Shown here piece by piece: positions 40,435-63,592 of a DNA stretch of 64,000 nt. The stretch's first letter is position 1; each line of letters opens with the position of its first letter. The notes under the pieces were generated by a model, which was not told the DNA's origin, searched no databases, and saw only the letters and a list, made by a program, of their open reading frames with translations. The stretch is taken from IMG/VR virus record IMGVR_UViG_3300046507_000639, positions 64,001-128,000 of that record, one strand, 5' to 3'. This stretch comes from a virus. A program made the position numbers and the translations under genes.

Positions 40435-41958
40435 TTAGCTCTCTGTGACTAGTCGGACCTTGCCGAACATCTTGTTGCCCGACGGGTGGACGGTCCTCTT
40501 CAGGACGTCGTAGTACTCCGAGAGCTTCTTTTTGAGGATGAGCTCGTAAGAGTACTCCTGGTAATAGTCGTCGTCTTGCAGGTATTTATCGCTGTCCACG
40601 AAGCTGGTTGAGTCCCTCCAGTATCCCTCGACCTTGCCGACCGCGCCTATCACTAGGGTGGCGTCGACCACGTGGAGCGCGTTCGTGGTGGAGGTGAGGG
40701 TGGCGTGGATGGTGTTGCCGCGGTAGGCGAAGCCCGAGGACACCACGGTGATGCTCGAGGGGACGCCGTTGCCGTAGAATGCCGACGTCGCGATGACCGC
40801 GTCGTTCCCCCAGTAGCCGCCCGAGCCGTCCTGGATGTGGAGCTTGTTCGTGACGGGCTCGAACACCTTGACGGTGACGTTGCCGTCGTAGTCGTGGCCC
40901 GGGTTGGTGGTGACGATCTTAGAGATAGTGCCGACAGTGTACGTGTTCATCGCGAGCGCGGAGTGCACCTTCGACGTGATGTTGGCGGTCGACATCGCGG
41001 AGCCGTCGCCGACGTTGTAGGTGTTGGCGCCGACCTTCACTGCGAGGTAGCCGTTCACGTATATGTTGGAAACGTCGATGTTGGACGTGTTGGACAACGA
41101 CAGTATCGCCATGTTGGCGTCGGAACCCATGGTGTTGCTGCCCGACGTGATGGTGATCGTGGAGTCTAGCTTGTAGCCGAAGCCGCCGTTGACGAGGTTG
41201 AAGTTGATGATGCCGTCGCCGCTGTTCTCGACCGCGCTGACGATGCCCCGGAAGTTGAGCCCGTCGGTGTTGGAAGTAGCAGTGACGAAGTCGCCGACCG
41301 TGAAGCCGGGCGTGGCGGAGTTCACGATGACGGAGGTGATGGACCCGAGGACGGTAGGCTCGATCGCCGTGATGCCCTCGTAGGTGATCGTCTCGCCGGG
41401 CGTGAAGTCGCCGCGGATGTTCGAGATGAACAGCAGGTCGATCAGTCGCCCGTTGACGTTGCGGCGCTCGTAGTTCTCGACGATCGCCTTCGCCCCGCTG
41501 ACCTTGCCCACGATGTTCTGGTTCTCGAACTGGTAGTTCGTGTCGTGCTTCGATATCTCAAAGTACCTAGGCTCGAACCACTCGCTGTTGTCGGGCTTGA
41601 AGATGTCCTCTGCCGGGATGTAGTACTCTATCTCGGTGTTGAAGAGCAGGCGGAACACAAGGCGGATGCCCTCGATGGAGCCCTTCGAGTTGTAGAGGTC
41701 GAGGATGTGCTTCTGGAGCATCCTCTTGTCGCCGAGGATCTGCTTCGGAACGCCCGACATGTACTCGTCCTTGAAGTAGTCAAGGAACTCGTCGGGGGTG
41801 GTGTCGATGTCTCGTATGTCGAGGAGCTTGCGCGTCTCGGACCGCTGCTCATCCCACTCGTAGTACGCCTTGACGAACTGGACGAAGTTCGTCCCGTCCT
41901 TCTTATAGAAGTCGGGGAACTGGTGCTGTACGAAGTTTGAGATGAAGTCTACGGTCAT
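40435..41958 (-). CDS. baseplate wedge-region virion protein between gp6 and gp8
   Basis: 507 aa. The N-terminal 160 residues (FISNFVQHQFPDFYKKDGTN, FVQFVKAYYEWDEQ, RDIDTTPDEFLDYFKDEYMS, DKRMLQKHILDLYNSKGSIE) are strongly conserved in T4-like marine phages, where it is a virion protein. The C-terminal part is beta-rich. The place between 6 and 8 is that of gp7 in T4, but sequence similarity to T4 gp7 is not evident, so no symbol is given. Confidence 0.7.
   Translation of the reverse strand: MTVDFISNFVQHQFPDFYKKDGTNFVQFVKAYYEWDEQRSETRKLLDIRDIDTTPDEFLDYFKDEYMSGVPKQILGDKRMLQKHILDLYNSKGSIEGIRLVFRLLFNTEIEYYIPAEDIFKPDNSEWFEPRYFEISKHDTNYQFENQNIVGKVSGAKAIVENYERRNVNGRLIDLLFISNIRGDFTPGETITYEGITAIEPTVLGSITSVIVNSATPGFTVGDFVTATSNTDGLNFRGIVSAVENSGDGIINFNLVNGGFGYKLDSTITITSGSNTMGSDANMAILSLSNTSNIDVSNIYVNGYLAVKVGANTYNVGDGSAMSTANITSKVHSALAMNTYTVGTISKIVTTNPGHDYDGNVTVKVFEPVTNKLHIQDGSGGYWGNDAVIATSAFYGNGVPSSITVVSSGFAYRGNTIHATLTSTTNALHVVDATLVIGAVGKVEGYWRDSTSFVDSDKYLQDDDYYQEYSYELILKKKLSEYYDVLKRTVHPSGNKMFGKVRLVTES
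40583..40590 (-). promoter_or_regulatory. variant T4-type late promoter
   Basis: GATAAATA on the minus strand within the 507-aa gene, about 155 bp before gene 8. Confidence 0.35.
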
Positions 41959-43748
41959 TCTGCCACCATCGTGACGGTCACGTCGGCCACGTCGAGGATG
42001 AGGAACCTGTTCTCAGCGACGGTCACGTCCCTCTCTGCGCCGGTGGCGTAGATCGAGATGAACCCGCTGTAGGACGACACGTTGAGGAGTATCTCCATGT
42101 TGCCCGTAGCGTAGTCGACCGAGCCGACCGACGAGTTGAGCACGTTCTTGGCGGCGTTGTTGGCGACGACCTTGAGGACGCCGAGTCCGTTGTCTTCGAT
42201 CTTGGCCGAGTACGAGATGCCGTTGACGACGTACGAGAAGATGGAGGAGGTGATCGTGGGCGCTATCGCCTTGTCGAGCTCCGACGAGACGTCGTAGTCG
42301 AGAAGCGGCGTGCCGAACGAGAACTTGAAGCTCGCGGGAGAGCCGGTGGTCGGGCTCCACCTCTTGATGATGGAGAGCGTGGTGTCGTTCGAGACTATCG
42401 CGGGGTCCACGTCGTCGATCGCGTTGACGAACTTCGAGTATCGCAGGTCGGAGTCGAAGTCAGTGAGGTTCGCTGCAGCGAAGTCCTCGATGGCGTCGAT
42501 CACGTTCACCCGCAGCTGCTCGAGCGGCGTGCTGATGAGCGCGGAGTCGTACGTCACGGTCGAGTTGACCTTCACGTAGAAGTACTCTGGGTCTACCACG
42601 AAGGCCTTCGTCGTGATGGACTTGCCCTCGAGGTAGTTGACGATCTTGCGCTTCACGTTGTCCGAGATGATGCCCTCGGTGCCGAAGGGCTTGATGAAGA
42701 GCGCGACGCGTCCGAACTGTGGGGGATTGAGCAGCTCACCGCCGTAGGCCAGCACTGACTGGACGATCGGGAACTTCTCGCGGACGAGGTTCTCGAAGTC
42801 TCCGTCGATGACGGCCCGCTCCTGGGTGGTGAAGTGACGCGGCCCGTGGAACTTGATGGACGCCAGGTCCTCACGCTCGGCCCCGCCTGAAGCGGGAGCG
42901 TCAGAGACGATGGATGAGACCCGGTAGCCGTCGACCGCGACAGAGGGCGAGAACGTCGTGAGGCCGTTTCCGTCTTCGCCGTCGGTGGCCACGTAGGCGA
43001 TGTTGATGATGTTGCCGTTCGAGACCGCGCGGCCGATGACGCCGTTGCCGAAGACCACCTCGTACCGGTCGTCGCTGTAGCCCTGGACGAAGAACACGTT
43101 GGACGTGGAGGTCAGACCGTAGATGTCGAGGGTGCGAGACCAGGTCACGGTCGTGTTGTCGGTGTTGGACGTCGTGACCTTCACCTCGATGGTGTCGACG
43201 TCGACGTTGTTGGCCTGGAGGGCGTACCGGACCGTCGAGTTGGCGACGAACGCCTCGCGGACGACGTTGCCCTGGAAGAGGTCGACCTCGGAGGCCGAGT
43301 AGTTGCCGAAGGAGTCGGCCTGGACGACGACGGCCGTGTTGGTCACGAGGGTGAAGACCTTCGAGTCGTTGTTGGCGTCGAAGCCGGCCGAGGACACCGA
43401 GTAGTACTTCGGGATGGTGACGCTCGAGGGCAGGTCGCCCCCGGTGTCGATCGTGAACGTCGCGGTGGTCCGTGCCGACGAGCGGGAGCGAGGAGTGTAG
43501 TTGAGCTCCTTCGACCTGGATATGACGGAGTCCTTGAGCACCGCGGTGTCGAGGAACATCTCGGAGCCGATCATGTTCTCGTAGTACGCGTTGAGCGTGG
43601 TGTTCAGCGCGAGCACGTCGAGCAGGACGGCGAAGTTTGAGCCCTCGAAGTCGTAGTCCTTGAACCGGGCCTGGCTCGCGAGGTACGTCTTCAGGCTCTC
43701 TCGGTAGTTGAGGAAGTCGAGCTCACTCGTCGGTATGAACTGAGTCAT
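41955..43748 (-). CDS. 6: gp6 baseplate wedge subunit
   Basis: 597 aa (T4 gp6: 660). Baseplate J-like family: FIPTSELDFLNYRESLKTYL, YDFEGSNFAVLLDVLALNT, SVISRSKELNYTPRSRSSA, GYSDDRYEVVFGNGVIGRAV. gp6 forms the ring that ties wedges together and to gp25/gp53. Overlaps gene 25 by 4 bp. Confidence 0.94.
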   Translation of the reverse strand: MTQFIPTSELDFLNYRESLKTYLASQARFKDYDFEGSNFAVLLDVLALNTTLNAYYENMIGSEMFLDTAVLKDSVISRSKELNYTPRSRSSARTTATFTIDTGGDLPSSVTIPKYYSVSSAGFDANNDSKVFTLVTNTAVVVQADSFGNYSASEVDLFQGNVVREAFVANSTVRYALQANNVDVDTIEVKVTTSNTDNTTVTWSRTLDIYGLTSTSNVFFVQGYSDDRYEVVFGNGVIGRAVSNGNIINIAYVATDGEDGNGLTTFSPSVAVDGYRVSSIVSDAPASGGAEREDLASIKFHGPRHFTTQERAVIDGDFENLVREKFPIVQSVLAYGGELLNPPQFGRVALFIKPFGTEGIISDNVKRKIVNYLEGKSITTKAFVVDPEYFYVKVNSTVTYDSALISTPLEQLRVNVIDAIEDFAAANLTDFDSDLRYSKFVNAIDDVDPAIVSNDTTLSIIKRWSPTTGSPASFKFSFGTPLLDYDVSSELDKAIAPTITSSIFSYVVNGISYSAKIEDNGLGVLKVVANNAAKNVLNSSVGSVDYATGNMEILLNVSSYSGFISIYATGAERDVTVAENRFLILDVADVTVTMVAE

Positions 43749-44155
43749 CTTATCCGTTCTAGGATCGTGGAGAAAGTTATGGGGTCTATCTTATTTATTA
43801 CGCGGAAAGTAATGGTCGCGCTGTACGCGTTCTGGTCCGGGCTGATCTGTACGTTCACGTCGAGCAGCTCGGCCCTCTTCTCGTAGGTCTGGATGCAGCG
43901 TACGATCGAGGATCGAATGAGAGTGGCGGTCACGGGAGTGACGTTCTCGAAGAGGTACTTCTGCAGGCCTGAGCCGATGCCGGGCCGGAAGCGTCGCTCG
44001 TAGGGTCCCGTGAACATCAGGTTCTTGATGGAGTTCTTCACGGCGTCCTCGTCCTTGAGCAACACGAGGTCGTGCTTCACGGGGTGAGCCGCGAAGTCGT
44101 TGCGGAAGTCAGAGTACTTGTTCTCGATCTTGGTGTTGGGTGTCTCTAGGGGCAT
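43745..44155 (-). CDS. 25: gp25 baseplate wedge subunit
   Basis: 136 aa (T4: 132), gp25/GpW-lysozyme-like family: YSDFRNDFAAHPVKHDLVLL, DAVKNSIKNLMFTGPYERRF, PGIGSGLQKYLFENVTP. It connects wedges to the sheath. Overlaps both neighbours. Confidence 0.94.
   Translation of the reverse strand: MPLETPNTKIENKYSDFRNDFAAHPVKHDLVLLKDEDAVKNSIKNLMFTGPYERRFRPGIGSGLQKYLFENVTPVTATLIRSSIVRCIQTYEKRAELLDVNVQISPDQNAYSATITFRVINKIDPITFSTILERIR
43792..43799 (-). promoter_or_regulatory. variant T4-type late promoter for gene 6
   Basis: AATAAATA on the minus strand inside gene 25, 44 bp before the gene 6 start. Confidence 0.55.
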
Positions 44156-46365
44156 CAGAATATCTTGTCCTTCTGTCCGAGGAGCGTCGAAACTATGTAC
44201 GCTCCCATCTGGTCCATCCTGTCGGCATGGTCGGAGCCGACGTCGAACTTGGTGTACGTGTCAGGCGCGTCGTCCTGCCGCTTGTTCTTGGTCTCTACGT
44301 CGGCGCCTGCCCCGTCCACGATGAGGGCCTGGACCCCGTTGATCGCGGTGTTGGCCATCTGCATCGGCGTGGAGTTCGCGGTGTTCTCGATCTTCGTCAC
44401 GGACGTCACGGCCTCCGTGGAGGGGTCTCGCGTCGTGCCCACGTCGGAGCCGTCGACTGTCTTGGAGACCGTGGAGGTGTCTCCCTTGACGTGCGACAGC
44501 GCCACGTTGATCTCCTCGTAGGTGAACGGAGACTTGCGGGAGCCGGTGAAGCCTGCCAGCATCATGGCGATGAGCACGATGTTGTCGTTTGAGTTACCTG
44601 ACGTGAGGTCTACCTGGGCGCAGTTGAGCATCGTTCCGGTCGGGTCCACGACGTTGAAGATGGCGTCGGTCAGGCCCGCGATCACCTTCGGGAGCAGTCC
44701 TGCCGGGACCATCGATGAGGCGGCCGAGAGCAGTGTCTTGCCGTCGGGCGACGTCGACTGCATCTGCCGGAGGCCCGCGATCAGTCCTCCGATGCGGTTC
44801 GAGTACGCTGCCTTGCCGGCGACCTGTCCGATGTATCCGTCCTCAAGCTTGTTAGTGACCCCGTCCACCACTCCCACGAGGAACGGGTTGTTGAACCGGA
44901 CTGACTGTGGGATGCCGTACTCGCCCGACGTGTTGGACGGGTTGTTCAGCATCGAGACGTCGGTGAGGGACCTGTAGCCCACGTCGCTCATCATCGGGAA
45001 GATGTCCTGTCGCGGCTGTCCCGATACGTTTCCGTTAGAGACCGTAGGGCACTTCACGAGGGCGGGGAGCAGCGTCGCGAGCGTCGAGTTGAGCGCGTCG
45101 GACGAGGAGTCGGGTGGGTCGTAGTCGGTGGTGTAGTCGACCGGCGTGTCGTAGAAGTTCGGCTTGATCACCTCAGTGGAGGCGTCCACCTCGGGCAGCA
45201 CGGACGTAGTCACGTCAGATATGTTCAGGTTCGCGGCGTAAGCGAGCTTGATCGCGTTGTCCTCCGACTGCAGGTAGCCGAGGTCGAGTGAGGTCTTGAT
45301 GAAGTCCTGCAGGACGTTCGTGTCTCGAGAGACAGAGACCGGGTTGGACGTCACGTTCAAGTTGAGAGAGCCGTCAGACTGCACGACGGAGTCGTCGGCG
45401 GAGGTCGAGAAGTCCTTGTCGACGTTCACGAGCCTGGACGGGTGGATCAGGGAGTTCTCAAAGCGGGTGCCGAAGACGTAGTTCTGGCTGGAGCCGTTGA
45501 GGATCACCGTCACCCGCGGCGCGTCGGTCAGGAAGTAGTCGAGGTAGAGCTCGTTGAAGTACAGGCTGTTGAGCATGTCCTTGGCTATGAGGTACACCGA
45601 GGACGGCGTGAAGCCTGGGAAGGAGAACGTGATGGCCTCGCCCATGTACGCCTCGGCGTCGGGCGCGAAGTAGACCTGCTCCGTGAATGCGCTGAAGACC
45701 TGTGCGGAAGCCGCGACACCGTCGAGGAGGTCTCGCACGACCGGCTCGTAGACGTTCACCGCGAGGTTCATGAGGTTCTTGACGATGATCTTCGTGGACA
45801 GCCCGGCCTGGGCGGTGAGGGTCTGCGGGCGGAGGCGGTACACGAGCAGGTCTCGGAGGTCGAGGTTCTCGCTCAACGGGTAGTCGAGGGAGGTGTAGTC
45901 GTCGCTCGGCTGGATCGTGACGATAGTGTAGTCGATGAGGTTCGAGGTGCGCACCGAGGCGTAGCCCACGTCCTGCTCAAACGCCACGAGGTTCTTCTGC
46001 TGCTCCTTGATGGAGGACACCGTCGCCTTCACGTTCGTGATCAGCTGCGATATGTTGATGTACCCGTCGAAGTTGAACTTGACGAGCGCGTCGACCTCCG
46101 AGGTGCTGAGCGAAGCTATGTTCTTCCGGTTGGGAGGAGACGTGACGTTGCGAACTTTCTTTGAGAAAGTAAAGCTGTTCGTCTTGGTGTCGTAGTAGAC
46201 CGGGTTCGTCTGCACGTTGCTGAGCAGGTCGGAGTTGGACGCGCCCTTGAGGCCGACGATCGGCACCGCGATGAACGCGTAGCGAGGGAACGAGAGGCCG
46301 TTCTCGAGGACGACCGTGTCCCCCACTTCTCTCGCTCCGGTCGGCAGAAACAGTTTGTAGTTCAC
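44155..46365 (-). CDS. large virion structural protein between gp5 and gp25
   Basis: 736 aa from a GTG. No enzymatic motif. The N-terminal part is beta-rich, there is a possible coiled segment (about 105-130) and an Ala/Gly-rich region near 530-600 (LLPKVIAGLTDAIFNVVDPT). Its position inside the baseplate operon implies a baseplate protein; it may occupy the space of a T4 wedge protein not otherwise found here. Family not recognised. Confidence 0.6.
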   Translation of the reverse strand: MNYKLFLPTGAREVGDTVVLENGLSFPRYAFIAVPIVGLKGASNSDLLSNVQTNPVYYDTKTNSFTFSKKVRNVTSPPNRKNIASLSTSEVDALVKFNFDGYINISQLITNVKATVSSIKEQQKNLVAFEQDVGYASVRTSNLIDYTIVTIQPSDDYTSLDYPLSENLDLRDLLVYRLRPQTLTAQAGLSTKIIVKNLMNLAVNVYEPVVRDLLDGVAASAQVFSAFTEQVYFAPDAEAYMGEAITFSFPGFTPSSVYLIAKDMLNSLYFNELYLDYFLTDAPRVTVILNGSSQNYVFGTRFENSLIHPSRLVNVDKDFSTSADDSVVQSDGSLNLNVTSNPVSVSRDTNVLQDFIKTSLDLGYLQSEDNAIKLAYAANLNISDVTTSVLPEVDASTEVIKPNFYDTPVDYTTDYDPPDSSSDALNSTLATLLPALVKCPTVSNGNVSGQPRQDIFPMMSDVGYRSLTDVSMLNNPSNTSGEYGIPQSVRFNNPFLVGVVDGVTNKLEDGYIGQVAGKAAYSNRIGGLIAGLRQMQSTSPDGKTLLSAASSMVPAGLLPKVIAGLTDAIFNVVDPTGTMLNCAQVDLTSGNSNDNIVLIAMMLAGFTGSRKSPFTYEEINVALSHVKGDTSTVSKTVDGSDVGTTRDPSTEAVTSVTKIENTANSTPMQMANTAINGVQALIVDGAGADVETKNKRQDDAPDTYTKFDVGSDHADRMDQMGAYIVSTLLGQKDKIF

Positions 46366-46366
46366 G

Positions 46367-49300
46367 TTAGCCGCTCCATGTCGCGCGGCTGCCCGGTCTC
46401 ACGTCGACGTGGGTGAACGTCGGGTAGCGACCGATGCCGTGCGCTGCTGGTATGTTGTTGATGATGTAGTCGTGGACCTGCGCCGGCGTGTAGCCCGCGA
46501 TGACGATGTCGGAGGCTCGACCGTACATGTGCTGTGAGTTCTTGGCGCCGCCGATCCTCGCGTTGTACCAGGGCGGGCGGAGGCCCGAGTGGATCGTGAC
46601 CTTGCCCAGGCGACGCGTGAGGACGTCGAGGACGTTCACGGCCAGCTTGGACATGTTCGCCACGATCTCGTCGCAGGACACTCGCCCCGACGGGAGGTCG
46701 AGGTAGGCCGGCATGTCAAACTTGTTGCCGCCCGACTGGAGCATGTCCGCGAGGGTGAAGAACTCGCTGATCTTCTGGTTCCTGTCGGTGTACTTCGTGG
46801 CCTGCGGCGGGAGCGACACGTCGGACTCAGAGCCGCGGGTGGCCGGGCCCGAGCCCACGCCGGTGTTCGGGCTGGTGCCGTTCGCGGGGGTGCTGTTGAG
46901 TCCCGCGTTAGCGTCGAAGTTCGGCGCCGGGTTGAAGATGCCGGGGTCCTTGCTGAAGCAGTCCTTGTAGATAGAAGCAGCGTAGCCCGCACGGTTGCCC
47001 CACTCGTTGCCCGCGAAGACGCCGTTGGTGGCAGACTCGAAGCCGTTGAACCGCTCGTAGAGCGCGGCGGACTTGACGGCGTCGGAGAGGTTGTTCGTCT
47101 TGTACGTGGTGGCCGCGCCGCCCGCGACTCCGTTCGGGTTGTTCTGGAGCTCGTACATCACGTAGTCGAGCTGTCCGTCGACGGTAGTGGACCGGTCTCC
47201 GAGGTAGGACTGCATCATGCTCTTGCGGTTGCCCGAGTCAGTCCACTGCGCGATGCCGGTGGCTCCGATGGAGTTCGTGGAGGTCGGGTTGAAGCGAGAC
47301 TCCTGCATGAAGCCGCCCGCGTACGCCGCCGCTGCCTCCTGGGTCATGCCGCGCTGGACGAGTCCGTTCGCTACCTCGCAGCCGTTGGACGACGATGAGC
47401 CGAGCGACACGGTGTCGAAGTTGGAGCGAGCGAAGTTCGATGGGTTTGCGGGTGAGTTGCTGTTCTGGGTGGCGCCCGAGTTGAAGGCCGAGCGCGTGGG
47501 TGAGGTGCCGACGTTGTTGCCCATCTCGTCGTGGGCCTCCATCTCCTGACGCTTTCCGAAGGTCATGTCGACCGCGGAGGGGTTGGACTCAGGGCTGGAG
47601 ACGACTGACACCGGCTGGAACTTGGCGGGGAAGTCGAACGTCGTGATGGACGGGGCGTCGGTGTGGTCGGCGATCGTGCCCTCGTCGAACGAGTAGTGCC
47701 CGCCGTCGAAGGTGATGTTGCCGCCGCTCGCGTTGACGCCCACTCCGCCGGAAGCGTTGAGGGACATCTTGCCGCCCGTGGTGTTCTCGATGGAGGAGCC
47801 GAACGTCTTGAGCGCTCCGGTGGCCGCGATCGTGCCTGCGCCCGCGGTCGTCGCCAGGAGGTCTCCCTTCGAGAAGATGGAGGTCTGGCCGTTGGAAGCC
47901 ATCGCGAGGTTGCCCTTCGTCATCACGGTCCTGTTGCCGAGCGTCATGTCCACGCTGTAGTTGGACTTGATCGTGTGCGAGCCGGTGGTGACGGTGGTGC
48001 GCGACAGCCCGGCCTGGTCTACCATGGAGCCGGCCGTGAGGTCCTGTCGGTTGCCGCCGACCTCGAGGTTGTAGTCCTTGCCGACCTCGACGAAGTGTCC
48101 CGCCTTGGACTGCTGCTTGAAGACGCCCTCGACCATCGCGGTCTTGTTGCCCGAGACGAACTCGTCGGTCGCGGCGGACACGATGGCGAAGCGACCGCCG
48201 ACCTCGAGGATGAAGTCGCCCGCGATCTTTATCTTCTTGTTGCCGTTTATCGTCTCAGTAGCGTCACCGTTAGATACGATATTATGAGAACCTTGAGCAA
48301 GACTGTACATGTCGCCCTGCGCCATGTGGACGATAGAGCCGTCCGGTCTGATCTCGTGAGCAGACCCCGTAGGAGATACAGTGACAAGTCTCTGCTTACC
48401 CGGAGTATCATCAGCGTAGATAGCGTGGCCACCAGGAGTTTCTCGTATAACGTGAGTGAAGCCATACTCTCCTCCCCAGCCGACCGTCGGCACCTGGACG
48501 GAGTCGATGACGCCCACGGCGGTGCGGTTCGAGGCGTTCCTCGGGTCCTGCGTGTAGAACTTGGTGAGGTTGCCCTTGATCGCCTGGATAGCGGGAGGCA
48601 GCCTGTTGGCGGTCGAAGTGCCGTTGTAGCGTGCGACGACCGGGTAGTCCTGGCCGTAGTTGATCGCGGGGTACGTGCCGCGCGGGTCGTGGAACGCCGT
48701 GGGCGAGGGAGTGACCCCGTCGAACTGGGTCTTGACCGGTATGTTGTCCGTGCCGAGCACCTTGGGCGAGCCGTCGGCGGCGACGTTCACGTTGTTCGGG
48801 AAGACGTCCTTCAGCGACTCCGAGACGTTGAAGTTCGGCTTGACGCCCGAGCCGTCTTTCGTCAGGTTGTTGGCGCCGTCGATCACGGCCTTGGGGTACT
48901 TCTTCAGCAGCACCGTCAGGAGTCGCTTGAGGGCGTTCATCTGTGGGACGGTGAACCTGTCTCCCATCGACGCCGTGTAGTCCCTCTTCGGGTCGTCGGG
49001 CAGGCCGCCCACGAGGCAGACTCGGACCGTGTTGGAGGTGGTGCCTCGCGAGACGATGTTCTCGAGGTCGTCGCCCGAGTCGATGGACTTAGACAGCTGA
49101 TTCTGCGGGAAGACCTGTCCCTGCGCGCTGATCACGAAGTGGTACTGGTCGAGTCCCGTGAACGACTTCAGGGGGAGCGACGCGTTGGACTTGCGGGTGG
49201 AGTTGTGCTCCACGAGGATGAGGCCGGCCTGGTCAGGCGAGTTGTCGAGGGCCTTCTCGTAGTTCGTGCCGACGTCGACCGTGCCCGTGTTGGCGTTGAT

Positions 49301-50059
49301 GTTCACGCCGTCCAGCGAGGACACGCCGAGCATCTGGGCCAGGGAGGTGTTCGAGTACTTGTCGATGTACGAGACGATGTTGTAGCCCTCGGTGGGGTTA
49401 GAACGGATCTTCTCGCTGTTAGAGATAACGTCGTAGATCTGGGTGGCGCGGAGGTCGTTAGTGGAGGACACCACTGAGAGGATGGAGTTGGCCTGGACGG
49501 TGGAGCCCGGCACGATCGGTCCCGTCAGCCCCGAGCTGATGACGTTGGCGTACGACGAGAGGTCGACCGCGTCGGAGGCGTCAGAGACGGTCGGGCCGTA
49601 CGAACCTGGCGCTGCCGACGAGACCTGGCCGAGCGAGACGGACTGGGTGAGTCCCGCGATGCCGTCAGAGCCAGTCGTCGAGATAGACTGGCCGGCGTCC
49701 ACGAGGGTCTGCTGCACCCGCGAGGGCTTGGGGTTGCCCGGGATGGTGCCGATGACGATGGGCTGCTGGGCGTCGCGGCCGTCCGAGAAGAAGCCGATGA
49801 CCCAGGAGCCCTCGACGAGCCCGTGCGTGGCGCCGATGCCCGACATGCCCGCCGAGGTAGTGGGCAGCATCACGTGCGCCCAGGGCAGGTCGGTCGTCGG
49901 GACGAGTGACTTGTCGTCGGGGTGGTAGCCGAGGCAGCGGGCCTGGACCCGGCCCTGCATGAGCGGGTCCTGTATGGACTCGACGACGCCCGCGAACCAG
50001 AAGCTGGTGTCGAACGTGCTGAACGTCATGTCGGTCGTGGTCGGGACGTGTCTCTTCAT
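46367..50059 (-). CDS. 5: gp5-type baseplate hub spike with amidase-like, tail-lysozyme and M15 peptidase domains
   Basis: 1230 aa, more than twice T4 gp5 (575). Order: OB-fold hub domain (about 20-110, FWFAGVVESIQDPLMQGRVQ, WVIGFFSDGRDAQQPIVIGT); an N-acetylmuramoyl-alanine-amidase-like domain (about 275-415) similar to T7 lysozyme (His285, QYHFVISAQGQVF, VCLVGGLPDD, ALKRLLTVLLKKYP) but lacking the later His and Cys zinc ligands; a gp5 C-terminal-type beta-helix (about 555-800) with repeated short strands; a phage tail lysozyme domain (about 890-1035, GGFMQESRFNP with Glu920, GIAQWTDSGNR); and an M15-type D,D-peptidase domain (about 1095-1230, SQHMYGRASD with His1177 and Asp1184, FTHVDVRPG with His1217). 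It punctures the envelope and digests peptidoglycan. The stop of gp27 overlaps its ATG. Confidence 0.9.
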   Translation of the reverse strand: MKRHVPTTTDMTFSTFDTSFWFAGVVESIQDPLMQGRVQARCLGYHPDDKSLVPTTDLPWAHVMLPTTSAGMSGIGATHGLVEGSWVIGFFSDGRDAQQPIVIGTIPGNPKPSRVQQTLVDAGQSISTTGSDGIAGLTQSVSLGQVSSAAPGSYGPTVSDASDAVDLSSYANVISSGLTGPIVPGSTVQANSILSVVSSTNDLRATQIYDVISNSEKIRSNPTEGYNIVSYIDKYSNTSLAQMLGVSSLDGVNINANTGTVDVGTNYEKALDNSPDQAGLILVEHNSTRKSNASLPLKSFTGLDQYHFVISAQGQVFPQNQLSKSIDSGDDLENIVSRGTTSNTVRVCLVGGLPDDPKRDYTASMGDRFTVPQMNALKRLLTVLLKKYPKAVIDGANNLTKDGSGVKPNFNVSESLKDVFPNNVNVAADGSPKVLGTDNIPVKTQFDGVTPSPTAFHDPRGTYPAINYGQDYPVVARYNGTSTANRLPPAIQAIKGNLTKFYTQDPRNASNRTAVGVIDSVQVPTVGWGGEYGFTHVIRETPGGHAIYADDTPGKQRLVTVSPTGSAHEIRPDGSIVHMAQGDMYSLAQGSHNIVSNGDATETINGNKKIKIAGDFILEVGGRFAIVSAATDEFVSGNKTAMVEGVFKQQSKAGHFVEVGKDYNLEVGGNRQDLTAGSMVDQAGLSRTTVTTGSHTIKSNYSVDMTLGNRTVMTKGNLAMASNGQTSIFSKGDLLATTAGAGTIAATGALKTFGSSIENTTGGKMSLNASGGVGVNASGGNITFDGGHYSFDEGTIADHTDAPSITTFDFPAKFQPVSVVSSPESNPSAVDMTFGKRQEMEAHDEMGNNVGTSPTRSAFNSGATQNSNSPANPSNFARSNFDTVSLGSSSSNGCEVANGLVQRGMTQEAAAAYAGGFMQESRFNPTSTNSIGATGIAQWTDSGNRKSMMQSYLGDRSTTVDGQLDYVMYELQNNPNGVAGGAATTYKTNNLSDAVKSAALYERFNGFESATNGVFAGNEWGNRAGYAASIYKDCFSKDPGIFNPAPNFDANAGLNSTPANGTSPNTGVGSGPATRGSESDVSLPPQATKYTDRNQKISEFFTLADMLQSGGNKFDMPAYLDLPSGRVSCDEIVANMSKLAVNVLDVLTRRLGKVTIHSGLRPPWYNARIGGAKNSQHMYGRASDIVIAGYTPAQVHDYIINNIPAAHGIGRYPTFTHVDVRPGSRATWSG

Positions 50060-51381
50060 CAGTTGATCTGTGCCTTCAGTCGAGAGTCCATGTTAGTGAT
50101 GGCAGCGTCGAAGCCGTCCTTGTAGAGGTCGAGCTGCATCGAGTGCTTGTCGGGCGCGAGGAAGATGTTTCGTGCCGAGCCGATGATGTACCGGCCTGAG
50201 AGGTGCGGGTCGTCGGAGACCTCGTCGTCGGCAGTGAACTCGGGTATCTTCAGGGTGATCAGGTCTCCCACGTCTACTGTGGAGTCTCCCGGCACCGTGA
50301 TCGTGAGCGACAGCTGGTTCAGCGCGAGTCGGTTGACGAGGTTCTTGCCGGCGGGCTTCATGAAGTTGAAGTTCTGGTCTACCCGACGCTCCTTCCACGA
50401 GGTGATGTTGCCTGACAGACCCATCGCGTCGGCGCGGACGTACTTCTCGATGAAGGCCGGCGTGTTCATCTTCTCGTTCGCGATGTAGGGGTTCACGTCC
50501 TTGTACGAGGTGACGTTCGAGTAGATCATCTTGTCGTCGAAGGAGTACTCGAGGGCCTCGTTGTTGAGCATGCCCTGAGACACGCGCTCGATGGTGTCGA
50601 ACGTCGAGTTCACCTTGAGCGAGAGTATGCGCCGCGGGTCCATGCCCGAGTCGCGCTGGTTGCCGAACTTGTCAGAGATGTACACGTAGTAGTTCTGGGA
50701 CTTGTTCAGCGGGCTGGAGACGATGCCTGCGAGGGTCTTGAAGTACACTCCGTCGAACCGCTCGAAGAACAGGAAGAAGTCCTCCTCGCTGTCCTTGGAC
50801 TTGACGCGGGACGAGAGGAACTCTATGGCGTCGTACGGGCGCAGGTACGGGATGCAGAGCACCTTGTTCGGGTCTATGCACGGGTCCACGAAGAGGGTCT
50901 TGTCGGTCTGCAGGTACGTCTTCAGCACGTCCTTGACGATCTCGTCGGCCGTGAGGGTGTTCCTGTAGGACTTCGCGACGAACGTGGACGCGTTGGCGAG
51001 CGCCTCCTCGGAGCAGAACTCCAGGACGTACGAGGACTTGGCTCCCTTGGAGTCGGGCAGTATGTCTCGGACGCGGTAGATGACTCCCTTGAAGTCCTTC
51101 GCGGCGTTGCCGGGCGTGTTGAACCTGATCTCGATCGTCTCCTCGCCGATGATGGGCATGCGCGTGAGGAGCGCGTGGGTGTCGACGACGAGGACGTGGC
51201 CGAAGATGCAGTTCTCAAAGATGGAGTTGGTGATGTTCATCTCCGTGAAGATCTCGCGCACGTCGACCGTCTGGCCGGCGTGGTTTGTAATCTTAACGAA
51301 AGATACCTCGACGTTGTGGGCGAGGCCGAGGTCGTACGAGGAGGTGTACTCGTCGACCTGCACCGTGTTGGAGTCAGCCAT
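50059..51381 (-). CDS. 27: gp27 baseplate hub
   Basis: 440 aa (T4: 391). Gene order 53-27-5 and features such as VEVSFVKITNHAGQTVDVRE, IFTEMNITNSIFENCIFGHV and LRPYDAIEFLSSRVKSKD identify the hub that forms the trimeric base around the gp5 spike. Ends on the gp5 start codon (1-bp overlap). Confidence 0.88.
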   Translation of the reverse strand: MADSNTVQVDEYTSSYDLGLAHNVEVSFVKITNHAGQTVDVREIFTEMNITNSIFENCIFGHVLVVDTHALLTRMPIIGEETIEIRFNTPGNAAKDFKGVIYRVRDILPDSKGAKSSYVLEFCSEEALANASTFVAKSYRNTLTADEIVKDVLKTYLQTDKTLFVDPCIDPNKVLCIPYLRPYDAIEFLSSRVKSKDSEEDFFLFFERFDGVYFKTLAGIVSSPLNKSQNYYVYISDKFGNQRDSGMDPRRILSLKVNSTFDTIERVSQGMLNNEALEYSFDDKMIYSNVTSYKDVNPYIANEKMNTPAFIEKYVRADAMGLSGNITSWKERRVDQNFNFMKPAGKNLVNRLALNQLSLTITVPGDSTVDVGDLITLKIPEFTADDEVSDDPHLSGRYIIGSARNIFLAPDKHSMQLDLYKDGFDAAITNMDSRLKAQIN

Positions 51382-51895
51382 AGATCTTACCGATCTCCGA
51401 TACTATCTGGGTGGCGTACGAGACGTCGATGAGTCGGATGTTCCTCTTGTTCTCGTTGAGCATGTCCTCGTAGTCGTAGGCGTAGACGGGGGTGTCCCAG
51501 CCCGTGAGGAAATTGACGTCGAGCAGCGACTTCGTGTCGGGCGTCATGTAGTAGTCGAAGTTCGGGTTGGACCAGTAGAGTATCGTGGACAGGGCCGTCT
51601 GCGCGTCACCGTACTTCTTGACGATGTAGCTCTTGAACTCAGACTGGTTCATCGGCCAGTCGTAGTACGGGTCCACGATGTCGTTAGCCATGTACACGAG
51701 CCAGTAGAGCTCGGAGTTGCCGTAGTAGTCGTATGCGATCGTGTCGGCCCGTTCGCCGTCGCGTATCACGAACGGGTGGAAGACCTGGACGGTGTCGAGG
51801 ACGCTCTTGATGATGTCCGACTTGAGCGTGAGGTTGCGGAGGGAGACTCCGCCGTAGTTTATCGTCGGGAAGTTCTCGAAGAATTTAGCTGCCAC
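51374..51895 (-). CDS. 53: gp53 baseplate wedge protein
   Basis: 173 aa (T4: 196). FFENFPTINYGG, DTIAYDYYGNSELYWLVYMA and NDIVDPYYDWPMNQSEFKSY match the LysM-like gp53 core. It completes the wedge and binds gp6/gp25. GTG start overlapping gene 48 by 11 bp. Confidence 0.92.
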   Translation of the reverse strand: MAAKFFENFPTINYGGVSLRNLTLKSDIIKSVLDTVQVFHPFVIRDGERADTIAYDYYGNSELYWLVYMANDIVDPYYDWPMNQSEFKSYIVKKYGDAQTALSTILYWSNPNFDYYMTPDTKSLLDVNFLTGWDTPVYAYDYEDMLNENKRNIRLIDVSYATQIVSEIGKIYG

Positions 51896-52721
51896 TTCCT
51901 ACTCCCGTCGTCTGGTTTCCAGTGGTCGTCGCCTGCTCTCCGTCGAAGTCCTCGCGGGTCAGCGCCTCGACCTCCTGCAGGGTGATCGACAGCGTGATCG
52001 TGACCGGGCTGCCGTCGATGAAGAAGGCGTTCGGTCGCCCGTCGGTGTAGTCGACCTGCACGTCCTGCACGACTGACTTGAAGACCGGGTAGAGGAAGGA
52101 CGAGCCGTAGAAGGTGACGTACACCTCGTCGGGGAAGCCCAGGATGAAGCTGCTCTTGCGCGTCGGGTGCATCCTCAGGCGGAGCTGCTTGACGATGTTC
52201 TGGAGGGCGATCGCCTCGCTCTGGCTGGTAGGCGAGAGCTGCCACGTGAAGTTGTGCGTGCGCAGGTTGGTGTTCTGGAAGAGGTTCACGAGGTGCGGGT
52301 TGGTCACCGTGCCCGAGAGGTAGTCGAGCACTTGGACCGGCTTGGTGTCCGCGAAGGTCGACCTCACGAAGCCCTGCAGCGCCTGCTCTCCGACCGTGCG
52401 GTCGATGTCGTTGGTGCCCGCGATGGAGCCGGCCTTCGACATTATCTTGTCGTACGCCTCGATGCCGCCCGCGATCCAGCTCAGCTCGGCGCCCGAGTAG
52501 TTGATCGAGTACTGCTCCTTGAGGTTGAACGGGAGCGGCAGGACGATGTCGGCGGTGGACGCGACGGCGGTGGTCTGCACCTTGGGGTTGGCCCGCGCGT
52601 ACTTCACGAAGTTGAAGCGCGAGAAGTAAGCCCCCTGAGTCGCGGGGAACTGCAGGAGGTTGGCAGAAGTGAGGTTAGCTTGACTTGCGTCGATCGCGGC
52701 GCGCGGGTCTGATGTGGCCAC
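51885..52721 (-). CDS. 48: gp48 baseplate tail-tube cap
   Basis: 278 aa (T4: 364) from the GTG at 52721 with GAGGG upstream. LQFPATQGAYFSRFNFVKYA, TADIVLPLPFNLKEQYSINY and NFTWQLSPTSQSEAIALQNI are conserved. gp48 and gp54 form the platform that starts tube growth. Confidence 0.9.
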   Translation of the reverse strand: MATSDPRAAIDASQANLTSANLLQFPATQGAYFSRFNFVKYARANPKVQTTAVASTADIVLPLPFNLKEQYSINYSGAELSWIAGGIEAYDKIMSKAGSIAGTNDIDRTVGEQALQGFVRSTFADTKPVQVLDYLSGTVTNPHLVNLFQNTNLRTHNFTWQLSPTSQSEAIALQNIVKQLRLRMHPTRKSSFILGFPDEVYVTFYGSSFLYPVFKSVVQDVQVDYTDGRPNAFFIDGSPVTITLSITLQEVEALTREDFDGEQATTTGNQTTGVGSGS

Positions 52722-52783: not shown

Positions 52784-53218
52784 ATGGCGGCGTACCGGCA
52801 GGGCTTCTTCAAGCCACGCAACCCAAAGAAGTACAGGGGCGACCCGACCCGGATCGTGTACCGGTCCTCGTGGGAGCTCAAGTGCATGCAGAAGTTCGAC
52901 GAGCACCCCGACGTCGTCGAGTGGTCCTCGGAGGAGCTGATCGTGCCGTACATGGACGTGAGCTCGGGCAAGCAGCGCCGGTACTTCCCTGACTTCATCG
53001 TCAAGAAGGCCGACGGCACCACCTTCATGGTGGAGGTGAAGCCCGAGAAGGAGACACACCCTCCCGCGCTGAGCAAGAAGAAGACGACGAAGTACCTGCG
53101 CGAGGTGCTCACGTGGGGCACGAACTCCAGCAAGTGGAGCGCGGCAGAGGCCTACTGTAAGAGACGCGGGTGGATCTTTATGGTCATGACTGAGAAGGAC
53201 ATATTCGGTGCCAAGTAG
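52784..53218 (+). CDS. 4: gp4 head completion protein
   Basis: 144 aa (T4 gp4/gp50: 150). YRSSWELKCMQKFDEHPDVV, EWSSEELIVPY, RYFPDFIVKK and FMVEVKPEKET have the layout of a restriction-endonuclease-like fold (E-x-n-PD-x-n-ExK), known for gp4. It is needed for heads to become competent for tail joining. First gene of the plus-strand late operon. Confidence 0.9.
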   Translation: MAAYRQGFFKPRNPKKYRGDPTRIVYRSSWELKCMQKFDEHPDVVEWSSEELIVPYMDVSSGKQRRYFPDFIVKKADGTTFMVEVKPEKETHPPALSKKKTTKYLREVLTWGTNSSKWSAAEAYCKRRGWIFMVMTEKDIFGAK

Positions 53219-62462: not shown

Positions 62463-62546
62463 TGGAGGCCTGCCCAGGGATCGAACCTGGTCTCTTTCGA
62501 GGCATCTCCTTTGCAGGGAGTCGCGTTACCGTCCCGCCCGCAGGCC
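62463..62546 (-). tRNA. tRNA-Cys (GCA) with enlarged variable region
   Basis: 84 nt including encoded CCA. Acceptor GGCCTGC/GCAGGCC, D-stem GCG/CGC, anticodon arm ACTCC-CTGCAAA-GGAGA (one A-A mismatch), T-arm CCAGG-TTCGATC-CCTGG, discriminator U73, which is a Cys identity element. Unusually, 14 nt lie between anticodon and T stems and can form CTC-GAAA-GAG, a short extra arm; tRNA-Cys normally has 4-5 nt there. Confidence 0.85.
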
Positions 62547-62650
62547 ACTTGCCGAGGACCTCTACGAGGTCGTAACGCTGTCTCGGCACTCTACGGGCAG
62601 TTAGGTGTCTGCCGACCTTTCACTCACCGTGCATGCCGGAGAGTTATTTC
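62547..62650 (-). other. structured spacer between tRNA genes
   Basis: 104 bp with no gene. On the minus strand TGCCGAG pairs with CTCGGCA around an inner perfect hairpin GACCTC-GTA-GAGGTC, and upstream CGGCAG-ACACCTAA-CTGCC forms another. It has no anticodon-type loop or CCA, so not a recognisable tRNA; it may aid processing or be a decayed tRNA. Confidence 0.4.
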
Positions 62651-62728
62651 TGGTGCCCGGCGTGGGGCTCGAACCCACGACATTCCCATTTTAAGTGGGA
62701 CGACTCTAACCAACTGGCCTAGCCGGGC
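62651..62728 (-). tRNA. tRNA-Leu-type (UAA anticodon) with short variable loop
   Basis: 78 nt with CCA. Acceptor GCCCGGC/GCCGGGC, D-stem GGC/GTC with a long D-loop, anticodon arm TCCCA-CTTAAAA-TGGGA, 5-nt variable loop ATGTC, T-arm GTGGG-TTCGAGC-CCCAC, A73. The anticodon reads UUA (Leu), and a 3-bp D-stem and A73 suit Leu, but bacterial tRNA-Leu should carry a long variable arm, which is missing. Confidence 0.8.
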
Positions 62729-62734
62729 GCATTC

Positions 62735-62742
62735 TATTTATT
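62735..62742 (-). promoter_or_regulatory. possible variant late promoter at tRNA-Leu
   Basis: AATAAATA on the minus strand, 6 bp before the mature 5' end of tRNA-Leu(UAA). A late transcript would start at about the tRNA's first base. Confidence 0.3.
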
Positions 62743-63118
62743 CTTCGTGGTGCGGGGCGTGGCTCCAGTCGACTTCACCGGTCTCGACGAGCTTGCGAAG
62801 AGTGAGCGCAGCGTCTTCCGGAGTCACGGCGCCAAAGTCGATGCCTTGACCGAAGGGGTAGAAGAGCTTACCGCCGATGTCTTCACTGATGCCGAGGTAT
62901 TTCCGGGCGTCTTCCAAGAACGTATCGTCGAATCTTATCGTCTCGGGGTGCCCGCGCTGTTCCCAGGCCGACCATCCCGCGAGGCATGCCGGCGCGCCGC
63001 ACTCGAAGGTCTCGTAGTTCAGGTTGAACCCGTGAATCTTGCCGTGCGAGTTGTCTACGCGAGGCAGAGTCTCGATGAGGTCGGCGAGCGCGAGGGCGTG
63101 TTCCCTGTTGACTGTCAT
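62738..63118 (-). CDS. conserved hypothetical phage protein
   Basis: 126 aa from the ATG at 63118 with GGAAGGGAC upstream. The segment FECGAPACLAGWSAW, then DARKYLGISEDIGGKLFYPF and TPEDAALTLRKLVETGEVDW, is a pattern I know from small proteins of many phages and bacteria (Cys-Gly-x-x-x-Cys-x-x-Gly-Trp core, LF-P block, terminal TG-VDW). No function is known. Confidence 0.65.
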   Translation of the reverse strand: MTVNREHALALADLIETLPRVDNSHGKIHGFNLNYETFECGAPACLAGWSAWEQRGHPETIRFDDTFLEDARKYLGISEDIGGKLFYPFGQGIDFGAVTPEDAALTLRKLVETGEVDWSHAPHHEE

Positions 63119-63147
63119 GATGTAGTCCCTTCCGTTGATCGTGAAGA

Positions 63148-63176
63148 AATATACCACGACCGGAGCCAAATGTCAA
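63148..63176 (-). promoter_or_regulatory. sigma70-like early promoter
   Basis: Minus strand TTGACA, 17-bp spacer, TATATT, reading into the 126-aa gene and the tRNA/gene 33-59-32 region beyond. Confidence 0.7.
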
Positions 63177-63189
63177 CTGATTTGAGAAA

Positions 63190-63411
63190 TCACTTCGTCG
63201 GGGGAGTAGTCGAAGTGTCCTTCGCGGCGAGCTGCTGGACGCTCGAGACCAGCGTCTTGATGACGAGGTTGAGCAGGTTGAGCGAACCGACGATCTTCAG
63301 GGCCACGACGGCCGAGACGATGGTGGTCCAGTCGAAACCGATCAGCGCAGAGATCAAGGTCGCGAGCAGCGTCGCGACTACTGCGATGAGGTTGAGTGTA
63401 TTGGTGTTCAT
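63190..63411 (-). CDS. small two-helix membrane protein (holin-like)
   Basis: 73 aa from the ATG at 63411 with GGAG 5 nt upstream; starts further upstream would overlap the tRNA-Leu(CAA). Helices at about 5-24 (LNLIAVVATLLATLISALIG) and 27-46 (WTTIVSAVVALKIVGSLNLL), an amphipathic stretch, then a polar tail KDTSTTPPTK. Size and layout resemble class II holins but nothing proves a lysis role. Confidence 0.5.
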   Translation of the reverse strand: MNTNTLNLIAVVATLLATLISALIGFDWTTIVSAVVALKIVGSLNLLNLVIKTLVSSVQQLAAKDTSTTPPTK

Positions 63412-63430
63412 CATGGCTCCGTTACAGTTC

Positions 63431-63509
63431 TGGTACCCGACCACGGAGTCGAACCGTGATGCACCTCGCTTTGAGGGAGGCGGCTTTACCGAGGTTTGCC
63501 TAGTCGGGC
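63431..63509 (-). tRNA. tRNA-Leu-type (CAA anticodon) with short variable loop
   Basis: 79 nt with CCA. Acceptor GCCCGAC/GTCGGGT (G-U at the end), D-stem GGC/GCC with a 13-nt loop, anticodon arm CCTCC-CTCAAAG-CGAGG (one C-C mismatch), variable loop TGCAT, T-arm CACGG-TTCGACT-CCGTG, A73. The anticodon decodes UUG (Leu) yet the long Leu variable arm is absent. Confidence 0.78.
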
Positions 63510-63514
63510 AAATT

Positions 63515-63592
63515 TGGCAGGGAAGGAGGGATTCGAACCCCCGATCGCGGTTTTGGAGACCGCAGCTTTAGGCCAGGCTAAGCTACATCCCT
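63515..63592 (-). tRNA. tRNA-Trp (CCA)
   Basis: 78 nt with CCA. Acceptor AGGGATG/CTTCCCT (one T-T mismatch), D-stem GCTT/AAGC, anticodon arm GCGGT-CTCCAAA-ACCGC, T-arm GGGGG-TTCGAAT-CCCTC, G73, a Trp identity element. It lies 5 bp from tRNA-Leu(CAA) and is probably co-transcribed. Confidence 0.92.

Follow-up and report, generated by a model that had tools for sequence, protein, structure and literature searches.

A gp5-type phage spike with a probably inactive T7-lysozyme-type amidase domain and an apparently working lysozyme-peptidase pair

The spike gene and its neighbourhood

The 64,000-base window, i.e., the whole stretch of DNA analysed here (GC content 59%), belongs to a viral record of 135,816 bases. 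A gp5-type central spike protein of 1230 amino acids is encoded at 46367..50059 on the minus strand, which also carries every spike domain and baseplate gene located below. The assignment relies on the open reading frame, Pfam, PHROGs, and a PDB search (best match 3e-34), in which gp5-type central spikes, including T4 gp5, are matched over the OB and needle segments; the second, or needle, segment spans residues 523-704. PHROGs profiles describe the protein as baseplate hub and tail lysozyme (2.6e-63) and as amidase (1.5e-12). The order of domains is Gp5_OB, T7-lysozyme-type amidase, gp5 β-helix, Phage_lysozyme2, and Peptidase_M15_3; in Pfam, Gp5_OB, Phage_lysozyme2 and Peptidase_M15_3 pass the cut-off, whereas Gp5_trimer_C and Amidase_2 fall short of it. 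The OB domain (residues ~17-115, 49715..50011) is defined by Gp5_OB (PF06714, residues 49-111, 1.6e-14) and by alignment to gp5 structures in PDB, and the β-helix (residues ~523-800, 47660..48493) by a weak match to Gp5_trimer_C (PF22178, residues 584-670, 0.011), by the PDB gp5 structures, and by blastp alignments to gp5 of phages Cr30 and phiM12.

The genes around the spike encode a gp48-like tail tube cap (51885..52721; T4_tail_cap in Pfam, phrog_230), a gp53-like baseplate wedge protein (51374..51895; Phage_gp53, 3.2e-12), a tail protein that by gene order is the gp27-like hub partner (50059..51381; phrog_350, 3.5e-64; its counterpart in phiM12 is annotated as gp27-like), a protein of 736 amino acids (44155..46365) that adjoins gp5, a gp25-like wedge protein (43745..44155; GPW_gp25, 2.8e-14), and a gp6-like wedge protein (41955..43748; phrog_219, 2.2e-142). 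The resulting order, gp48, gp53, gp27-like, gp5, 736-residue protein, gp25, gp6, matches that of Sinorhizobium phage phiM12. The nearest annotated relatives of gp6 are found in Stenotrophomonas phage DLP6 (39%), Rhizobium phage RHph_I1_18, and Caulobacter phage Cr30. Pfam profiles detected no PAAR tip protein in the viral record, and a search of the record for Amidase_2, Phage_lysozyme2 and M15_3 found no further copies of these three families. Judged by its predicted OB domain, its needle and its place among the baseplate genes, all three of which are present, the product of 46367-50059 is a T4-like gp5 central spike.

Elsewhere in the window, the gp4-like head closure protein (52784-53218) has a match to the N-terminal domain of the TnsA endonuclease (4e-21), and four clustered genes for tRNAs (Cys, Leu, Leu, Trp) lie at 62463-63592.

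The unusual layout of the spike is real and is not an artefact of assembly; a chimera is ruled out because two independent contigs, L001 (85% identical) and L003 (71%), carry the same architecture. A further contig, L002, holds a partial copy that is 100% identical, so that the fused form is known from three distinct sequences, those of the window, L001, and L003. The 736-residue protein is found next to gp5 in L001 and L003 as well.

Two enzyme domains follow the needle. In the Phage_lysozyme2 domain (residues 895-1032, 46964..47377; Pfam 1.9e-16), the putative catalytic Glu is E920, which in an alignment with phi29 gp13, albeit a weak match (E 0.02), falls on the catalytic Glu45. In the Peptidase_M15_3 domain (residues ~1091-1225, 46385..46789; Pfam residues 1137-1219, 5e-14), the alignment with the Streptomyces albus carboxypeptidase (1lbu, 4.5e-5) places the zinc motif of the latter over H1177 and D1184, and H1217, invariant in the three relatives, belongs to an FTHVDVR segment in the last part of the M15_3 match. 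The initial annotation had listed Glu920 and His1177, Asp1184, His1217 as the retained motifs of the two domains, and these comparisons bear it out; at the sequence level, the matches to both families speak against the possibility that residues 890-1230 have neither a lysozyme nor an M15 fold. The intact motifs suggest that the C-terminal lysozyme and M15 peptidase are apparently working enzymes.

Active-site residues of the central amidase domain and of the neighbouring protein

T7 lysozyme, or gp3.5, is an N-acetylmuramoyl-L-alanine amidase. Similarity to this protein is found in the central part of the spike (residues ~275-425, 48785..49237), which was delimited by profile and residue comparison. 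The Amidase_2 match in Pfam (residues 295-388) is weak (0.017), and in PDB the T7 lysozyme is matched by residues 335-396; a profile built from the three sequences of the domain finds T7 lysozyme (1lba) at 1.7e-7, and hhalign of the domain against T7-type amidases gives 99% probability and 2e-18. On these last two profile comparisons and the PHROGs amidase match, the assignment of the domain to the Amidase_2 / T7 lysozyme family is firm. Two runs of AlphaFold2 gave models of low confidence (pLDDT 65 and 67); Foldseek with the second of these ranked Amidase_2 proteins first, with none at E < 0.001, and even this support is partly circular, since the alignments behind the models included real amidases. 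Our conclusions on the domain rest on sequence, and the models carry no claim.

In T4 gp5, the OB domain occupies residues 1-129, the lysozyme 174-339, and the needle 389-575 (PMC7650644). With the OB domain at ~17-115, the amidase at ~275-425 and the needle from ~523, the amidase of the window protein takes the position of the T4 lysozyme. The T7-lysozyme type proposed in the initial annotation is thus borne out by the profiles, and the location that it gave, N-terminal, is better described as internal.

To examine the active site, we aligned the domain from the three spikes with 39 proteins of the T7 type encoded on viral contigs and read the columns at the known zinc ligands (His17, His122, and Cys130) and catalytic residues (Tyr46 and Lys128) of T7 lysozyme. 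All five residues are present in each of the 34 ordinary T7-type amidases. The three spikes have, in the order His17, Tyr46, His122, Lys128, Cys130, the residues H, Y, A, G, and K/A/G. In the window protein, His17 corresponds to H285 and Tyr46 to Y306, His122 is replaced by A396, Lys128 by G405, and Cys130 by K407, the alignment at the last two positions being less certain because the loop in gp5 is three residues longer. His17 is thus the sole zinc ligand left, and of the catalytic pair Tyr46 is kept and Lys128 is gone.

The residue account given at first, i.e., that the first zinc His is kept, that GANNL stands where the second should be, and that no Cys follows, agrees with the alignment: H285 is His17, GANNL is present with A396 at the place of His122, and there is no Cys between C348 and C894. 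To this has to be added the loss of the catalytic Lys and the retention of the catalytic Tyr. Residues 263-440 of the window protein contain H285, H307, and C348 as their only His and Cys residues, and H307 and C348 align with residues that are invariant in active enzymes and are not ligands. A site with three His/Cys ligands is therefore impossible, and its rebuilding elsewhere in the domain is excluded for the window protein by the residue count and the alignment; the structure models are too weak to add more. We conclude from these replacements that the amidase domain is, by prediction, no longer able to bind catalytic zinc. Family profiles, the 34 intact T7-type amidases and the persistence of the loss in relatives together support the original description, in which three peptidoglycan-enzyme domains, one of them probably dead, are joined to a gp5 hub.

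Loss of these residues was also seen in another group. In T7-lysozyme homologues of pelagiphage HTVC109P and related phages (L089, L093, L098, L099, L102, L103), Tyr46 is replaced by F and Lys128 by V or S; most of them also have S for Cys130, and L093 has Y for His122. These proteins are possibly kept for control of RNA polymerase rather than as amidases.

The ligand loss is fixed in both related viruses, L001 and L003. Between the window and L001, dN/dS of the amidase domain is 0.13, with 0.08-0.17 in the other parts of the spike, which indicates that the domain is under purifying selection. Its longest invariant run in the three viruses, residues 384-403 (LLKKYPKAVIDGANNLTKDG, 48851..48910), is the former zinc loop (shuffle p 0.0018), and the codons of this run differ synonymously between the viruses, which speaks against drift and for constraint where the active site used to be; with three sequences, the evidence for such constraint is suggestive. 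When intermediates with the zinc site kept were sought on viral contigs by means of the amidase, the neighbouring protein and gp6, the same three contigs alone came up. Several relatives have gp5 with no recognised enzyme at the central position, so that a domain there is optional and is not required by assembly of the spike alone, and in gp5 of other relatives the position is filled by unrelated folds.

The 736-residue neighbour has no family match in Pfam, PHROGs or NCBIfam. A tblastn search tied it to the end of gp5 of Synechococcus phage BUCT-ZZ01, and a profile of five M15-type domains, all terminal domains of phage proteins, matches it with 46-50 bits in all three viruses (blastp 3e-12). 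The zinc His, Asp and His of M15 are all replaced in the three viruses, and residues 150-310 of the 736-residue protein of the window contain a single His, H308. The domain (residues ~156-304, 45454..45900), which we call pseudo-M15, has a dN/dS of 0.22. In a tree rooted at midpoint, it groups with the M15-type domains of Cr30, pf16, Melnitz, BUCT-ZZ01, and Vibrio 1.244 (support 99/97), apart from the M15 domain of the window gp5; the tree lends no support to its origin as a recent copy of the latter. The replaced ligands make the 736-residue protein, which receives its first assignment here, in all appearance a second dead enzyme, with an M15-type domain that has no zinc ligands. The initial annotation had missed this enzyme in the next gene, as well as the T4-lysozyme position of the amidase and the fact that its loss is common to relatives and the domain constrained.

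Possible roles of the inactive domains

On balance, we lean towards the central spike of a T4-like phage with a live C-terminal pair, in which the two dead domains are selected for a non-catalytic job, most likely that of gripping peptidoglycan. The starting points are the domain architecture, the loss of zinc-binding and catalytic residues, and its conservation in three viruses, all read from sequence, and from these we infer C-terminal activity, binding to the wall and an order of events. The spike would cross the outer membrane; the gp13-type lysozyme at its end would cut the glycan chain, and the M15 peptidase, also at the end, the peptide stems. The dead amidase and the dead M15 domain of the neighbour would meanwhile grip peptidoglycan near the puncture, keeping the live enzymes there.

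A fuller and more tentative account holds that two older enzymes, an amidase and an M15 peptidase, have been retired as peptidoglycan-gripping parts, and that a new lysozyme-peptidase pair has been added at the needle end, so that two dead and two live enzymes of the baseplate cluster would divide binding and cutting between them. Retirement of the older enzymes after the arrival of the new pair would be compatible with both the tree and the gene order.

The dead amidase might instead serve as a structural collar only, packing on the OB domain and the needle or holding the linkers, with no contact with the wall. It does lie between two long linkers, as the T4 lysozyme domain does (T4 layout in PMC7650644), and its conservation resembles that of the adjoining regions. 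However, relatives have no recognised domain or have unrelated folds at the central position, and the strongest constraint inside the domain falls on the old zinc loop. For these two reasons we prefer binding to the wall to a role in structure alone, which we see as possible, if rather doubtful.

An amidase that is still active, either with a metal site rebuilt from Asp or Glu or by zinc-free action, is improbable. The domain retains H285 and its catalytic Tyr, and acidic residues, e.g., E284 and D402, are conserved, but His122, Cys130, and Lys128 are gone in three viruses and there is no spare His or Cys in the window domain. Decay of the dead domains into leftovers with no function would account for the catalytic residues lost in both, and is made highly improbable by the dN/dS of ~0.13 and 0.22 and by the invariant loop of 20 residues, which together disfavour neutral decay. 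Docking of a phage-encoded spike inhibitor to the dead central domain, after the manner of T4 Spackle (gp61.3), which binds the gp5 lysozyme domain at the same position (PMC7650644), is speculative and very unlikely.

Comparison with known systems

T4 gp5 resembles the window protein in its OB domain, in the enzyme-type domain between OB and needle, in the β-helix needle, and in the baseplate genes around it; it differs in having one live lysozyme centrally and nothing past the needle, where the window protein has a probably dead T7-type amidase centrally and two enzymes after the needle. T7 lysozyme shares with the central domain its fold or family, as judged by sequence, and His17 and Tyr46, whereas in the window His122, Lys128 and Cys130 are replaced and the domain is fused into the spike.

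The contrast drawn initially with T4 gp5, which has a single lysozyme domain, is correct; it overstates the novelty, since multi-enzyme spikes are already known from Cr30, BUCT-ZZ01, and the hub of A-1(L). In gp5 of Caulobacter phage Cr30 (L109) there is a central enzyme, Phage_lysozyme2, and a C-terminal M15-type domain, and in that of BUCT-ZZ01 (L113) a central GH19 enzyme and, again, a C-terminal M15-type domain. Unlike the window protein, these spikes have two enzyme domains with their motifs present, and lack both the amidase and the C-terminal lysozyme. The terminal M15-type domain of Cr30 gp5 (L109, 10512-12614) is named neither by the annotation nor by Pfam. Hub gp15 of Anabaena myophage A-1(L) is described as having three wall-enzyme domains, two of them, an endoglucanase and a peptidase, shown to be active (PMC10966104). 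In contrast to the window protein, it is a hub barrel rather than a gp5-type spike and has different folds, and its description mentions no lost active site (PMC10966104).

In phiM12 (L110), gp5 is followed by an M15 gene and then by gp25, as in the window; there, however, it is the M15 gene that keeps the zinc motif, gp5 being without an M15 match, whereas in the window the intact M15 domain is in gp5 and the M15-type neighbour is apparently dead. A further 63 gp5 proteins encoded on viral contigs were compared, picked by similarity and thus not representative; none of them matches Amidase_2 or Phage_lysozyme2, seven have M15_3, and two end in a VgrG3-like C-terminal domain of type VI secretion systems (PF21277; L029 5974-8166, 1e-36; L035 230-2503, 2e-30). 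Other arrangements were noted in Vibrio phage 1.244.A (L114, 4340-5326), where a PAAR tip is fused to an M15-type domain, and in Methylophilales phage Melnitz-2 (L112, 2959-6002), where gp5 is split, with OB in one gene and the needle and an M15-type domain in the next.

A literature search of partial coverage found no dead wall enzymes in phage baseplates, which is weak evidence. Phage spikes are usually labelled "tail lysozyme" from one domain; automatic annotation would mislead here, because the domain at the lysozyme position probably cannot act in the manner of its family, and cleavage of the wall seems to be carried out elsewhere. Dead wall enzymes that are retained within a single baseplate cluster would provide a testable case of enzyme folds put to a different use in a virus particle. 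Relative to the known multi-enzyme spikes, what is new is, by the residues kept and lost, the presence of two dead domains beside two apparently live ones.
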